Below the pieces are notes generated by a model. The model saw only the letters and a list, made by a program, of their open reading frames with translations, ran no database searches and had not been told where the DNA came from. A program made the position numbers and the translations under genes. Positions 11,529 through 19,446 of a stretch of 22,730 nt of DNA are shown here, piece after piece. The stretch's first letter is position 1; each line of letters opens with the position of its first letter. The DNA is taken from positions 1 through 22,730 of the IMG/VR virus record IMGVR_UViG_3300025904_000013; one strand, 5' to 3'. The stretch is from a virus.

Positions 11529-12337
11529 CTACTGGTGGTGTGCACGGTCCTGCTCGACGTCCTTGCTGGAGAAGGCGGCCTGCAGCCGGTTGGCGGGGAC
11601 CGGGATCACGGTGCTGCCGGCGGCGATGAGCGACTCAGGCCGCGTGAGCAGACCGAGGATGCGGGTGCGGAGCCAGTTCCACGACCGCTCGCGCATCAGC
11701 ACCGGATCGCCGATGTCGACGCCGATGTCCTGCAGGTCGAGTTCGATCAGCTCCCACCGGTCGAACAGGTCGAGCCAGGTCACACCGCCGTCGCGGTGCC
11801 CTCGGGCGCGCTCGGTGATGTCGACGATCGGGTAGATGCCGGGCTGCGGGTTCGGCCCCGGGTGCCCGTAGACGCCCGGCTGGAGCTCGACCCACCCGTC
11901 TTCTTGCCGGTGCGCTTCGTCGCCGCCCGTCGAGTTGCCCGGTTGCCCCGGGCCATCGCTTCCCCCTGGGCCGCCGCAGTGATGTCGGCGAGGGACTCGT
12001 TGTCCGTGATGACGAGGTACGCGTCGCGCGCGATCGTGACCAGGTCGCCCCACTCGATCCCGTCGGCGAGCATCTCGTCATAGACGGGCCCGAGGACGTC
12101 CCGGTAGAACGTCTTCTCCTGCTCGTCGTCGAGGTTCAGGCTGGCACGTTCGTCGTCGGTGAGCGGTCGGCCGGCGGCGAGCTTGAGGCCGAGCGCGGCG
12201 TACGCGGTCAAGCGCGCGCCGACCTCGGCCGAGGGGGACGGCACCCGGTACGTCTTTCCCCCGGGGTGCTCCTTGGAGGGCACCCCGGGGTAGTCGATCG
12301 TCGCCCCGAAGAGGGCGCTTAGGTCGCGGACGGGCAT
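11529..12337 (-). CDS. Tail assembly chaperone long form (gpGT-like), by -1 frameshift
   Basis: The frame shifted by -1 relative to the gpG-like gene remains open to a TAG at 11529. It clearly encodes protein: QEDGWVELQPGVYGHPGPNP, then WLDLFDRWELIELDLQDIGV and RERSWNWLRTRILGLLTRPE. It has no convincing start of its own. A slippery-type GGGGGAA at 11960-11966 lies in the right register (last base of CAG, then GGG GAA). A -1 slip there, re-reading base 11960, gives a 269-aa fusion: about 126 residues of the gpG frame plus 143 of the downstream frame. This is the gpG/gpGT arrangement found before the tape measure in many tailed phages. The exact slip site is inferred. The alternative is that the downstream part is translated alone from an internal start. 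Confidence 0.7.
11780..12337 (-). CDS. Tail assembly chaperone short form (gpG-like, DUF7426-type)
   Basis: ATG at 12337 overlaps the major tail protein stop (TGATG). Residues 1-120 resemble DUF7426-type tail chaperones: MPVRDLSALFGATIDYPG, a GGKTYRVPSPSAEVGARL segment (26-43), a helical middle with EKTFYRDVLGPVYDEMLADG, and GDLVTIARDAYLVI (97-110). After about residue 128 the sequence turns basic (ARGNRATRRAATKRTGKK), then low-complexity Ser/Thr/Arg until the stop at 11780. That tail overlaps the well-formed -1 frame, as expected when a fraction of ribosomes shift. The product should bind the tape measure protein and recruit tail tube subunits during assembly; it is probably absent from the virion. 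Confidence 0.83.
   Translation of the reverse strand: MPVRDLSALFGATIDYPGVPSKEHPGGKTYRVPSPSAEVGARLTAYAALGLKLAAGRPLTDDERASLNLDDEQEKTFYRDVLGPVYDEMLADGIEWGDLVTIARDAYLVITDNESLADITAAAQGEAMARGNRATRRAATKRTGKKTGGSSSSRASTGTRGRTRSPASTRSSTSPSAPEGTATAV
11960..11966 (-). promoter_or_regulatory. Candidate -1 frameshift slippery heptamer GGGGGAA
   Basis: Read in the gpG frame as CAG GGG GAA, the heptamer G-GGG-GAA lets the P-site glycine codon re-pair perfectly and the A-site glutamate codon re-pair with a G-U wobble. It lies in the overlap of the two chaperone frames and gives the observed -1 register. No other heptamer I checked in the overlap fits as well. Confidence 0.55.
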
Positions 12338-15488: not shown

Positions 15489-16421
15489 TCAGGCTCCCTG
15501 GATGATGCGTGCGGCGTTGGGCTCCTGGACCATCGGCGCGCGGACGATGCGGGCCTGGACGACGACGCCATCGACGTCCTCTTCGCGGTACTTCTTGACC
15601 TCGACGCCCGACGCGACGTCGGACGGGTCGCCCTGGTAGCCGCCGCCGAGACGCTCGTACGCCATCGATCCGAGCATCGTGGAGTCGAGCGCGATCGCCG
15701 TCACGCCCGAGGGCATGTTGGTCGTCTTGACCCACGTCTGCCCGGCGATCTGGATCGAGTTGATGTCGCGGGTCGCGGCGTTGCCCGCCGCCTCGCGGGG
15801 CAGGATGCCCTGCTTGACCGCCGAGGAGACGGCGAAAGCGAACTTCGTCGGCGTGGTGGCGACCGTGTCGACGTTGTAGCCCTGGTTCTCCTCCATCACC
15901 GACGCGTCGGCGAGCAGGATGTCCTGCAGCGGGTCGGCGCTGGTGGTGCCGTCCCAGGTGGCGTGCGCCGTGATCGTCTTGACCACCGCCGACGCGATCG
16001 CGGCCAGCGCGAGAGCGTCGTTCTGGAACGTCAGCCGGTTGGCGATCTTCCGGAGCTCGCGGAGCACCTTGTCGATGTTGTTGTGCGCCACGTCCTCGTC
16101 ACTGATGATCGTCTTGAGACCGGTCTTGTCCGGCCGGACGGTGGCCAGGCTCGGCGCGGCGCCCTGGGCGAGCGGGTACTGCGACAGCGGCCGCACGACC
16201 GACCCTGACAGAGCGGTCATGATGGCCTCGGACACCTCGTAGATGCCGAAGCCGGTCCCGGTCAGGTCGACCCGGCCGGACAGCAGACGCCACCCGATGA
16301 GGTTCTGCATCACCAGCGTGCGGAGCAGTCGGTAGATGCGGCGCGGGTCGTTGCGCAGCCAGTCGACCGTGATGGCCGTCCCGCTGACGGTGGGGATCGG
16401 CAGGTCGTAGTTGTCGGCCAT
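15489..16421 (-). CDS. Major capsid protein, HK97-fold type (310 aa)
   Basis: ATG at 16421 follows the decoration protein stop by one base. The size and gene order (protease/scaffold, decoration, capsid, connectors) are canonical. Visible HK97-like elements are an N-terminal arm (MADNYDLPIPTVSGTAITVD), a spine-helix-type region (IISDEDVAHNNIDKVLRELR with K-I-A-N-R-L), the phrase LQDILLADASVMEENQGYNV, a P-domain-like strand set with QIAGQTWVKTTNMPSGVTAI, and a C-terminal EVKKYREEDVDGVVVQARIV strand pair. There is no long N-terminal delta domain, in line with scaffolding being supplied by the protease gene. About 415 copies are needed for a T=7 head; the T number cannot be read from sequence. 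Confidence 0.88.
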   Translation of the reverse strand: MADNYDLPIPTVSGTAITVDWLRNDPRRIYRLLRTLVMQNLIGWRLLSGRVDLTGTGFGIYEVSEAIMTALSGSVVRPLSQYPLAQGAAPSLATVRPDKTGLKTIISDEDVAHNNIDKVLRELRKIANRLTFQNDALALAAIASAVVKTITAHATWDGTTSADPLQDILLADASVMEENQGYNVDTVATTPTKFAFAVSSAVKQGILPREAAGNAATRDINSIQIAGQTWVKTTNMPSGVTAIALDSTMLGSMAYERLGGGYQGDPSDVASGVEVKKYREEDVDGVVVQARIVRAPMVQEPNAARIIQGA

Positions 16422-16422
16422 G

Positions 16423-16788
16423 TCAGACTCCGAACAGCGAGTAGGAAACGGACTGGCCGTTGCTGGCGGCCGTCATCGCCTTCGCGATGAGCGACGCGAC
16501 GGCGTCGGTGCCGGAGACCCAGGTGCGGATCTGGCCGGACGCCGCGGCGCACAGCGGGTCACCGACGGCGATCGAGCCCGACGCGGTTCCGCGGTGCTTG
16601 CCCGGCCCCCAGACGGTGATCTTGTCGCCGGACACGCCGTCCTGGCCCGCGACACCGGCGACGGAGGTCGACGCGGCGCCGGCCGCAGCGCCGGCCCAGG
16701 TGACCAGCTGACCGCCGGTCACCGTGCCGGACAGCGTGAGGGTGAACGGCTCGTCGGAGTCGAAGTAGATCGGCAGGTAGTCGCTCAT
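16423..16788 (-). CDS. Capsid decoration / DUF2190-like cement protein (121 aa)
   Basis: I placed the start at ATG 16788, which overlaps the protease stop as ATGA. The protein is almost all beta: SDYLPIYFDSDEPFTLTLSG, TGGQLVTWAGAAAGAA, DKITVWGPGKHRGTASGSIA, then GDPLCAAASGQIRTWVSGTD and an amphipathic end (SLIAKAMTAASNGQSVSYSL). The sequence 'G.i..Gd.l.a..sG....w..g' is characteristic of DUF2190-type and related capsid decoration proteins that bind three-fold or quasi-three-fold axes. The location just before the major capsid gene matches the lambda D-E order. Confidence 0.85.
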   Translation of the reverse strand: MSDYLPIYFDSDEPFTLTLSGTVTGGQLVTWAGAAAGAASTSVAGVAGQDGVSGDKITVWGPGKHRGTASGSIAVGDPLCAAASGQIRTWVSGTDAVASLIAKAMTAASNGQSVSYSLFGV

Positions 16789-17300
16789 CGGACCAACGCC
16801 TCCTTGCTGACGCCGGCGCGCTGTGCGAGCGCGTCGGCCTGGTCGTCGGTGAACACGGCGTCGCCTGCGCTGCCGTCGTGGCCGGCGACGCCAGTCGTCG
16901 GGCCGACCGGGAACAGCGGCTCGCCGTCGGTGAGGGTGGCGATGGCCGCGCGGGTGCCCTCGGCGTCGGCGTCCCACTGGGCGACCCAGTGGGCCCGGCG
17001 CGCCGGGGAGATGTGCCCCGAGTTGATCGCGGCGTTGATGGTGTCGTCGCGGTCCTGCCGAAGCTGGACTGCGCGGGCCTCCTGGCCGTCGCGGGCCGCG
17101 AGGCGCAGCTCGTCGAGCACGGCCTGCGAGACGACGACGCTCCCCTCGGGGATGGCCGCGGCGGGCGGGTCGGCGGCAGGCGGGTCCGCGCGCTCGGCGA
17201 GGGCCTCGGTCTGGGCGGCCACGATGGCCGACTCGTCGGCGTCGTTGGGGAGGCCGAGCTGCTGCCGCATGGTGGTGAGCTGCTCGTCGGTGAAAGCCAC
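16785..17300 (-). CDS. Putative free scaffolding protein from internal start (171 aa)
   Basis: An in-frame GTG at 17300 (Val283 of the protease fusion) is preceded, at seven bases, by GAGAGGAG (17308-17315). It coincides with the start of the scaffold domain: (M)AFTDEQLTTMRQQLGLPNDA resembles the first residues of stand-alone scaffold proteins. The product would contain an N-terminal helix, an ADPPAADPPAA linker, a helical segment (VVVSQAVLDELRLAARDGQE) and the ISPARRAHW region. Overlapping in-frame protease/scaffold pairs are known in lambda (C/Nu3) and Mu (I/Z). Use of this start is an inference from SD strength, spacing and domain boundary. Confidence 0.5.
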   Translation of the reverse strand: MAFTDEQLTTMRQQLGLPNDADESAIVAAQTEALAERADPPAADPPAAAIPEGSVVVSQAVLDELRLAARDGQEARAVQLRQDRDDTINAAINSGHISPARRAHWVAQWDADAEGTRAAIATLTDGEPLFPVGPTTGVAGHDGSAGDAVFTDDQADALAQRAGVSKEALVR

Positions 17301-18146
17301 GGCAGCGCTCCTCTCGTGCGTGATGGACCCGTCCGCGTCTGCGGCGGGGGCTTGGGGACGGCCGGCCGCGAGGGCGGCGGGCGCGTGGGCGAACATCGAC
17401 AGGTCGAACCGGGCAGCGGCCCGGGCCGCCAGCGCGGTCGCGGAGTCCTGGCCGGCCATCGCCTCGACGAGTGCCTCGAGCTCGGCGTCGACGTCGTCGG
17501 CGTTGACCGGATCCGGGGTCGTCTCGAGGCCGACCTTGTCGGCGAGCTTCGCGGCGACGGTCTCCTCGGCGGTGTACCAGGTCTCGGCACGCATCACGGC
17601 GCGCCACTCGGCCGCGGTCCCGCCGGCCTTGAGCGCGTACAGGCTCGCGACGCTGTCGGACAGCTTGTCGAGCACGACCGCTTCGGCGCGCAGCTCGTCA
17701 GCGGAGCCGAGGGCGATGTTCCACGCGTCGTGCACCATCATCATCGAGCCTGGCGCCATCGTGACGACGTCGCCGGCGGTCGAGATGTAGGACGCTGCGG
17801 AGGCGGCGAGCCCGAACACGGTGACATGGATGCTGGCCGAGTGCGCGCGGAGCAGGTTCGCGATCGCCACGCCCTCGGTCGCTTCGCCGCCGGGCGAGTT
17901 CACGCGCACGTACAGCGTGTCGACGTCGCCGGCCTGCTTGAGCGCCCGGTCGACGTCGCGGGCCGAGATGCCCCACCAGCCGCCCCAGGAGTCGATGACG
18001 TCGAAGATGTCGAGCGTCGCCGACGTGCTGGTGGACCCGTCGGTGCCGGTGGTGGCGGCGTTGCGGCGAACGGTGACCGGCCGCGACACCTCAGCGCACG
18101 GCTCGACGCTGCCGCGGAACCGGTAGCGCGGCTGGATGTCAGGCAC
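16785..18146 (-). CDS. ClpP-type prohead protease with C-terminal scaffold domain (453 aa)
   Basis: I chose GTG at 18146, with GGAGG five bases upstream, overlapping the portal stop by eight bases; upstream residues in this frame are Arg-rich shadow. Residues about 45-215 are a ClpP/S14 protease: YVRVNSPGGEATEGVAIAN (79-97), the serine motif GLAASAAS with Ser116, and MMMVHDAW with His139, 23 residues later. The third catalytic position aligns to Glu188 (AETWYTAEE) instead of Asp. After a helical and Ala/Pro-rich linker, residues 283-453 form a separate domain (FTDEQLTTMRQQLGLPNDAD, then INSGHISPARRAHWVAQWDA) like Mu I-type scaffolds. The enzyme should cleave the scaffold, and possibly itself, during head maturation. 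An internal start may also give free scaffold. Confidence 0.9.
   Translation of the reverse strand: MPDIQPRYRFRGSVEPCAEVSRPVTVRRNAATTGTDGSTSTSATLDIFDVIDSWGGWWGISARDVDRALKQAGDVDTLYVRVNSPGGEATEGVAIANLLRAHSASIHVTVFGLAASAASYISTAGDVVTMAPGSMMMVHDAWNIALGSADELRAEAVVLDKLSDSVASLYALKAGGTAAEWRAVMRAETWYTAEETVAAKLADKVGLETTPDPVNADDVDAELEALVEAMAGQDSATALAARAAARFDLSMFAHAPAALAAGRPQAPAADADGSITHERSAAVAFTDEQLTTMRQQLGLPNDADESAIVAAQTEALAERADPPAADPPAAAIPEGSVVVSQAVLDELRLAARDGQEARAVQLRQDRDDTINAAINSGHISPARRAHWVAQWDADAEGTRAAIATLTDGEPLFPVGPTTGVAGHDGSAGDAVFTDDQADALAQRAGVSKEALVR
17308..17315 (-). promoter_or_regulatory. Internal ribosome binding site for the scaffold ORF
   Basis: The minus-strand GAGAGGAG lies inside the protease/scaffold gene, seven bases before an in-frame GTG at the domain boundary. 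It is as strong as SD sequences used by genuine genes nearby. Confidence 0.5.
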
Positions 18147-19446
18147 TCGAGCCTCCGTCCGTCGGCGCACCGTCGGCCGGCACGGCCTGGTAGATCGGGT
18201 CCTTCGGGTCCTCGGCCGGGACTCCCCAGCGCTCACGGATCCACGCCCGGGCCGGCTGATCCGCTCGCAACCCGCCGTACTCCATGAGCCAGTTGAGGTC
18301 CTGGGCGGTGAGTTGCACGTCGGCGCCGACGTCCTGCACGACGATCCGCGGCGCTGGCTCGTTCTCGCCCCAGTTCGCGTCGACCAGCGGGACGACGATC
18401 TGGGCGGTGGCGGTATCGGCGATGAACTCTGCGTCGGCCTGCTGCGCCATCACCATCAGGTCCATCACGGTCTCGCCGAGGGACCGGTTACCCCGCTCGG
18501 CGACCGCCATGTCCAGGATCGACGTGAGGGTGGCGCGGGTCATGGCGCGGTCGAGGTAACTGACGAACGCGAGCGCGTCCGGGACCGTCCCGGTCATGCC
18601 GGCGATGACGAGCCGGTACCCGGCAGGCGGCCGGACGTGTGAGAACTCGCCCGCCTTGATCCGCGACAGGACCCGCTCGGCCTCGGCCTCCTGCTGCGGC
18701 GTGACGCTGGCGCCGGGCAGCGGCTCGAACGTCGGCACCCCCATGCCGAAGCGGCGGATGCTGGTCGCGTGGACCCGCAGCAGCTGGTCCTTGATCAGCC
18801 ACGGCCCGTACGCGGGCCGGATCAGCGACTGGCCGAAGTAGTTCGAGCCCTCCCGCTCCCGGACGTAGTAGACGAGCCGGTGATCTGCGGTGGTGATCTT
18901 CGGGACCTGCTGGCCCGACACGCCCGAGCTGAACAGCGCGCCGCCCTGCTCGACGGAGGCGAGCGTGCCGTCCCGGTTCAGGTGCAGCGTGCTGATCGTC
19001 TGCGGCATGCGCTCCTGCACGACGCGCAGGCGCCACATCCCGTCGGCCGGCTCCCACGCCTGCTCGAAGAACATGTGCCCGTACACCCGGTACAGGCCGG
19101 TCAGGCGCAGATGCTCACCCCAGGTGAATCCGCGCCGGCGTGCGCCCGTCGGCTCTTCCTCGGCGCCGGCGATGGGCAGGCCGAGATCGTCGGCGATACG
19201 CGCCGCCACCTCGTCCCGTACGCCGGCCGGATCGAGCGCCCAGTTGGCCCGCGCGATCGCCTGCCCGTACGCCGCGAGGATCGCGGTGAGCTGCGGGTCA
19301 TGCCTCATCCGCCCGAACGTCTGCACCGATTGCGGGTGCACCAGCTGCGGCGTGTTCTCCAGGAGGTAGTCGACGATCGCGCCGTACGAGTCAGCGCCGA
19401 AGTCGTCGACGTAGCCGCGCAGTTCGGTGGGGATGCTCGAGGTCAC
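18139..19446 (-). CDS. Portal protein (435 aa, DUF935/Mu gp29-like)
   Basis: The GTG start at 19446 follows the TerL stop by 18 bases and has AGAGGGGG upstream. The N-terminal region (RMRHDPQLTAILAAYGQAIA followed by R-A-N-W-A-L-D) and GFTWGEHLRLTGLYRVYGHM precede VYYVREREGSNYFGQSLIRP with A-Y-G-P-W, and IKDQLLRVHATSIRRFGMGV, a set typical of DUF935-like portals. The stem and crown region is helical (VSYLDRAMTRATLTSILDMA). The C-terminal part (LTAQDLNWLMEYGGLRADQP and IRERWGVPAEDP) is also common in this family. Twelve copies would form the DNA channel at one capsid vertex. The gene lies directly between terL and the protease, as expected. Family naming is from pattern; function is well supported. 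Confidence 0.88.
   Translation of the reverse strand: MTSSIPTELRGYVDDFGADSYGAIVDYLLENTPQLVHPQSVQTFGRMRHDPQLTAILAAYGQAIARANWALDPAGVRDEVAARIADDLGLPIAGAEEEPTGARRRGFTWGEHLRLTGLYRVYGHMFFEQAWEPADGMWRLRVVQERMPQTISTLHLNRDGTLASVEQGGALFSSGVSGQQVPKITTADHRLVYYVREREGSNYFGQSLIRPAYGPWLIKDQLLRVHATSIRRFGMGVPTFEPLPGASVTPQQEAEAERVLSRIKAGEFSHVRPPAGYRLVIAGMTGTVPDALAFVSYLDRAMTRATLTSILDMAVAERGNRSLGETVMDLMVMAQQADAEFIADTATAQIVVPLVDANWGENEPAPRIVVQDVGADVQLTAQDLNWLMEYGGLRADQPARAWIRERWGVPAEDPKDPIYQAVPADGAPTDGGSSA

Follow-up and report, generated by a model that had tools for sequence, protein, structure and literature searches.

Whether the predicted capsid maturation protease gene of this virus encodes one product or two, the second being a scaffold translated from a start inside the protease reading frame, is the question raised by the locus described here. 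The stretch analysed, referred to as the window, is the whole virus record of 22,730 bp, and all coordinates are window positions. We consider it very probable that one gene gives two in-frame products, a protease-scaffold fusion and a predicted free scaffold, by the logic of lambda C/Nu3 and Mu I/Z. The features on which this reading depends are as follows, in order of transcription on the minus strand.

18139 to 19446, minus strand: portal protein of the Mu type (PF06074 Portal_Mu, E 2.4e-42), its end overlapping the protease start
16785 to 18146, minus strand: long form, ClpP-type capsid maturation protease and scaffold fusion of 453 aa, with the internal GTG at codon 283 (ORF, PF00574, phrog_2976, PDB)
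17460 to 17940, minus strand: ClpP (S14) protease domain, approximately residues 69-229 (PF00574, alignment, PDB matches, predicted fold)
17301 to 17348, minus strand: low-complexity linker between protease and scaffold, residues ~267-282 (AlphaFold2, alignment)
17308 to 17315, minus strand: internal Shine-Dalgarno (SD) sequence GAGAGGAG, core AGGAG at 17312-17308, spacer 7 nt (sequence, SD energy)
17298 to 17300, minus strand: internal in-frame start GTG of the nested scaffold, codon 283 (sequence, conservation)
16785 to 17300, minus strand: nested scaffold of the Mu Z type, predicted free product of 171 aa (PF10123, helical model, homologue lengths)
16423 to 16788, minus strand: cement/decoration-type protein of 121 aa (43% identity to Vasanti gp5 over 99 aa)
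15489 to 16421, minus strand: major capsid protein of 310 aa (PF25209 Phage_capsid_4, E 6e-11; phrog_1650 major head protein, E 1.6e-51)

A ClpP-type protease joined to a scaffold domain

The fusion ORF runs on the minus strand from a GTG at 18146 to a stop at 16785; mechanically, the frame could be extended as far as 18236, within the portal gene. Its GTG start is preceded by the SD sequence GGAGG, with an anti-SD energy of -11.1 kcal/mol, and its stop is overlapped by the ATG (16788) of the cement-type gene. Residues 70-206 match PF00574 CLP_protease in a Pfam scan (E 4.7e-23), the best PHROG for the fusion is phrog_2976 head maturation protease (E 8e-89), and the PDB relatives of the protease half are ClpP chains or subunits, with E values as low as 3e-23. 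The fusion of 453 aa with a ClpP protease, as the preliminary description had read it, is therefore borne out by the ORF coordinates and by the Pfam, PHROG and PDB matches, and the ClpP fold and homology of the N-terminal half place it with the S14 phage maturation proteases. Ser116 and His139 are invariant across an alignment of 30 homologous sequences and, judged by motif and spacing, would be the catalytic serine and histidine of ClpP. The linker that follows is poorly conserved as a peptide in the homologue alignment, and its residues 269-281, which lie shortly before the internal start, have an AlphaFold2 pLDDT below 50.

The 171-aa product predicted beyond this linker matches PF10123 (Mu-like prophage I protein) over profile positions 154-329 of 330, with 26.5 bits against a gathering cut-off of 25.2. 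As Mu Z matches the same profile over positions 153-330, the predicted start lies where Mu Z starts, and the earlier claim that a scaffold-like domain begins at the internal start agrees with this match to the second half of the profile. Compared by hhalign with Mu Z as a lone sequence, the scaffold gave a weak match (E 0.01, probability 4%), the curated Pfam profile being the better test of this kinship. The structure predicted for the scaffold is helical (pLDDT 87), with one helix of 35 residues. Foldseek searches with this model found nothing significant in the PDB, where no solved structure was matched, and one significant match among viral models, to a protein from an Arthrobacter phage that bears the name scaffolding protein (E 1.2e-6). 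A scaffold role for the domain is suggested by homology and gene order.

The internal start and its conservation

Between the AGGAG core and the GTG at 17300 lies a spacer of 7 nt (CGCTGCC), and the duplex energy of this site with the anti-SD sequence is -12.2 kcal/mol, the strongest among the in-frame interior starts of the gene (runner-up -5.6), though only slightly stronger than that of the gene's own start (-11.1) or of the next gene's (-11.2 kcal/mol). The in-frame GTG with a strong SD at spacing 7 and the product of approximately 171 aa, both of which had been proposed from a first reading, are confirmed by these values and by translation from 17300 to the stop at 16785, which gives a predicted protein beginning (V/M)AFTDEQLTTMRQQLGLP. 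The AGG within the internal SD is the sole AGG among the 29 arginine codons of the ORF. When synonymous codons were resampled with the protein held fixed, an SD of this strength arose in 1.0% of trials, and together with the GTG in 0.3%, which for the window alone is moderate evidence only (P 0.003). RNA folding predicts that the internal start codon of the window is for the most part paired, with a mean unpaired probability of 0.23.

Conservation among homologues was assessed on 75 sequences with the C-terminal domain, reduced to 60 representatives of less than 80% identity, and a site was scored where an in-frame ATG or GTG lay at most 4 codons from the aligned position with an anti-SD energy of -8 kcal/mol or lower. 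Alignment to relatives had been proposed as a check on the preliminary description, and the objection from non-conservation fails: the internal SD and start are present in 60 of the 60 representatives (median anti-SD energy -12.2 kcal/mol), a count of non-independent events, as the homologues are related. Control blocks from the same genes, scored by the identical best-of-9-codons rule, passed in 58 of 2,357 cases (2.5%), and 70 of 1,061 other interior in-frame starts reached -8 kcal/mol. In 50 of the 60 genes no other interior start was as strong as this site. Across the family, the internal initiation site is present far beyond chance. Synonymous inertia seems unlikely to explain this, many homologues being only 30-45% identical in protein. 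Internal products of 145-178 aa are predicted in 58 homologues. One further homologue (L048:785-1975), whose reading frame is broken close to where it begins to match the window protein, was excluded from the alignments.

The form of the conservation points to the nucleotides. Where the start column encodes valine, the codon is GTG in 38 of 38 cases, against 34% of other valine codons. Among the 60 representatives the SD core occupies each of the three codon phases (35, 13 and 12), and the residues encoded by the SD region vary (ERS, EGS, KE, KG), so that selection acts on the nucleotide sequence and not on the peptide; because the SD shifts in codon phase between homologues, conservation of a peptide motif (KE/QE) is rejected as the explanation. 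In 85% of the representatives, local RNA structure at the junction is weaker than in the rest of the gene (mean z +0.75).

These observations bear on how a free scaffold could otherwise arise. The ClpP domain might cleave the fusion within the linker and so release whatever free scaffold there is, leaving the internal SD and GTG incidental; the linker is indeed disordered and of low complexity, and self-cleaving proheads are established for this type of system. Such cleavage requires no SD, no fixed spacing and no choice of GTG, yet all three are conserved and the linker peptide is not, so we regard it as an improbable substitute for the internal start, in addition to which it may nevertheless operate. 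More doubtful again is that the SD-like sequence, which sits exactly on the domain boundary, pauses translation between domains for folding of the protease, without initiation; pausing needs no in-frame ATG or GTG at initiation spacing, no exclusive use of GTG at valine and no weakened structure, and genes of the Opie type (described below) retain the start after an unrelated N-terminal domain.

In the closest relative of the window, L003 (62% identity to the fusion by tblastn), the 22 nt spanning the junction, GGAGCGCTGCCGTGGCTTTCAC, are identical to those of the window. This match, as part of a resemblance to an ordinary gene start, might suggest a non-functional relic of a recent fusion of two genes, the least credible of the explanations considered, as a dead site is expected to have decayed and fusion and signal occur together across divergent homologues from many actinobacterial genera, with scaffolds 25-63% identical to that of the window.

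Internal initiation is further supported by an independent set of prophages and contigs from GTDB bacterial genomes, unused in forming the hypothesis and found with the full-length alignment, which came from Micromonospora, Nocardioides, Arthrobacter, Microbacterium, Gordonia, Rhodococcus and other genera. The site was at the expected position in 35 of the 38 members with a scaffold domain. The 3 exceptions were all from Corynebacterium; two of these (L139, L165) carry a start with a strong SD at a more upstream position, and in this set of 38 the Corynebacterium prophage L157 had no comparable internal site.

Comparison with Mu and lambda, and the neighbouring genes

On the proposed mechanism, ribosomes initiating at GTG 18146 would make the 453-aa fusion of ClpP-type maturation protease, flexible linker and scaffold domain, and those initiating at the internal GTG 17300 would make the 171-aa scaffold alone. 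The free scaffold would co-assemble with the 310-aa capsid protein, which seemingly has no built-in scaffold, and the scaffold domain common to both products would bring fewer protease molecules into the prohead, where the protease would then degrade the scaffold ahead of DNA packaging. Production of both products, their ratio and their role in assembly are suggested by homology to Mu I/Z and by analogy to lambda C/Nu3; by analogy, too, free scaffold may be in excess. That the locus follows the logic of these two systems, as had been proposed, gains support from the PF10123 homology and from the conserved internal SD and start.

As in Mu I/Z, an in-frame internal start with a ribosome binding site is found at the scaffold boundary, in the position corresponding to that of Mu; homology to Mu extends over the entire scaffold domain, the portal is of the Mu type, and the major capsid protein gene comes after the scaffold. 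The window differs from Mu in that its N-terminal protease is of the ClpP type (S14), PF10123 aligning only from residue 230, and in having a cement-type gene between scaffold and capsid protein. The phage of the window is probably actinobacterial, judging from the hosts of its relatives. With lambda C/Nu3 it shares the arrangement of one ORF, a serine protease followed by an in-frame nested C-terminal scaffold, then decoration and capsid genes; lambda C is an S49 peptidase, whereas the best Pfam family in the window is PF00574 ClpP, with PF01343 absent, and Pfam scans revealed no sequence relation between the scaffold and Nu3.

GenBank annotates Mu Z with a start internal to gene I, and in the part of Mu I examined this annotated start ranks 2nd of 11 by SD energy. 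The annotated lambda nu3 start (5132) is weak (-2.7), so that in neither lambda nor Mu is the annotated start top-ranked, and SD energy alone is not an infallible finder of nested starts. The strongest in-frame interior SD of lambda gene C is that at ATG 5342 (L089:1343; CAGGAGG, -10.8), and N-terminal sequencing of Nu3 is reported to favour the later start as well. Lambda C and Nu3 overlap, as PMC8508860 notes with reference to Shaw and Murialdo 1980.

Within the consulted text of PMC4378225, gene 27 of the Pseudomonas Mu-like phage PaMx73 is given a predicted internal GTG (Val 177) with an SD for a scaffold inside the protease gene; this differs from the present case in being a Mu-type gene of a Pseudomonas phage, and that text yielded no family-wide statistical test. 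The 'capsid maturation protease' genes of Gordonia phage Vasanti, Arthrobacter phage Elesar and Microbacterium phage Min1 are homologous fusions that share the internal SD and start, but are annotated as protease only, and the 'scaffolding protein', where annotated, is the next gene. The expectation that annotation reports only the long form held in 10 of the 10 annotated family phages inspected. In most of these ten records the next gene is called 'scaffolding protein', and in several it belongs to a cement protein family; the scaffold domain itself has matches in 185 phage records.

In Vasanti (L084:3454-3816) and Elesar (L086:3459-3818), the gene after the protease that is labelled 'scaffolding protein' matches PF09956 Phage_cement_2, and PHROG 673, 'head scaffolding protein', also gathers this cement-family gene. 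The label looks wrong for the Vasanti/Elesar group. The corresponding gene in Ruthy, Wocket, Mbo4 and GrandSlam fell below every Pfam cut-off, so only in the Vasanti/Elesar group can the gene be relabelled with confidence; the cement-type protein of the window (16423-16788) itself reached no Pfam family.

The length of the capsid protein is consistent with a separate scaffold. HK97 and D3 capsid proteins have an N-terminal scaffold (delta) domain (PMC12749128), for which, in its HK97-type form, the 310-aa capsid protein of the window appears too short. At 90 loci with a fused scaffold, the next large ORF downstream, which presumably encodes the capsid protein, has a median length of 310 aa; in 37 protease-only relatives the median is 425 aa. 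This fits a separate scaffold in the fused group and an N-terminal delta domain in the protease-only group.

The logic of the nested gene is itself already known from lambda C/Nu3, Mu I/Z and PaMx73; the present analysis adds the ClpP-type variant, statistical backing from a broad family and the connection with how the next gene is labelled. A literature search, covering few subscription papers, returned the lambda C/Nu3 and Mu-like precedents and no description of a nested start in the ClpP-type actinophage family. In a large group of actinobacteriophages the nested product is likely the scaffold that had been missing, which changes the choice of gene product to express for building proheads and offers a direct test of free versus protease-tethered scaffold.

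Ahead of the tape-measure gene, at 11529-12083 of the window (minus strand), a pair of overlapping ORFs resembles the usual tail assembly chaperones, where a programmed frameshift would be expected.

Scaffold domains with other N-terminal partners

Seven phages (Opie, Ruthy, Wocket, Mbo4, GrandSlam, StAB and Altadena) join the scaffold domain to another, non-ClpP N-terminal domain. That of Opie matches phrog_3894, and searches for it found no Pfam family and no PDB relative; GH and RS-E motifs are conserved in the N-terminal domain across the seven phages and may mark an assemblin-like protease. The start of the scaffold module is the top-ranked interior SD in 7 of the 7 Opie-type genes, so that the nested start persists with unrelated upstream domains. 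This suggests that the nested start sets the point where one protease type can replace another, and we hold the matter evenly balanced as to whether the nested scaffold and its start form a portable cassette, with the internal start as the recombination joint for exchanging unrelated maturation proteases.

A second in-frame ATG, likewise preceded by a strong SD (-9 to -12 kcal/mol), lies inside six of the Opie-type genes (L085:2581, L170:2460, L171:2463, L172:2514, L173:2472 and L174:2472). This second start, found in 6 of 7 cases, precedes a conserved middle domain with the motif EDVRRAYYD, and Opie-type genes may thus encode a third nested product.
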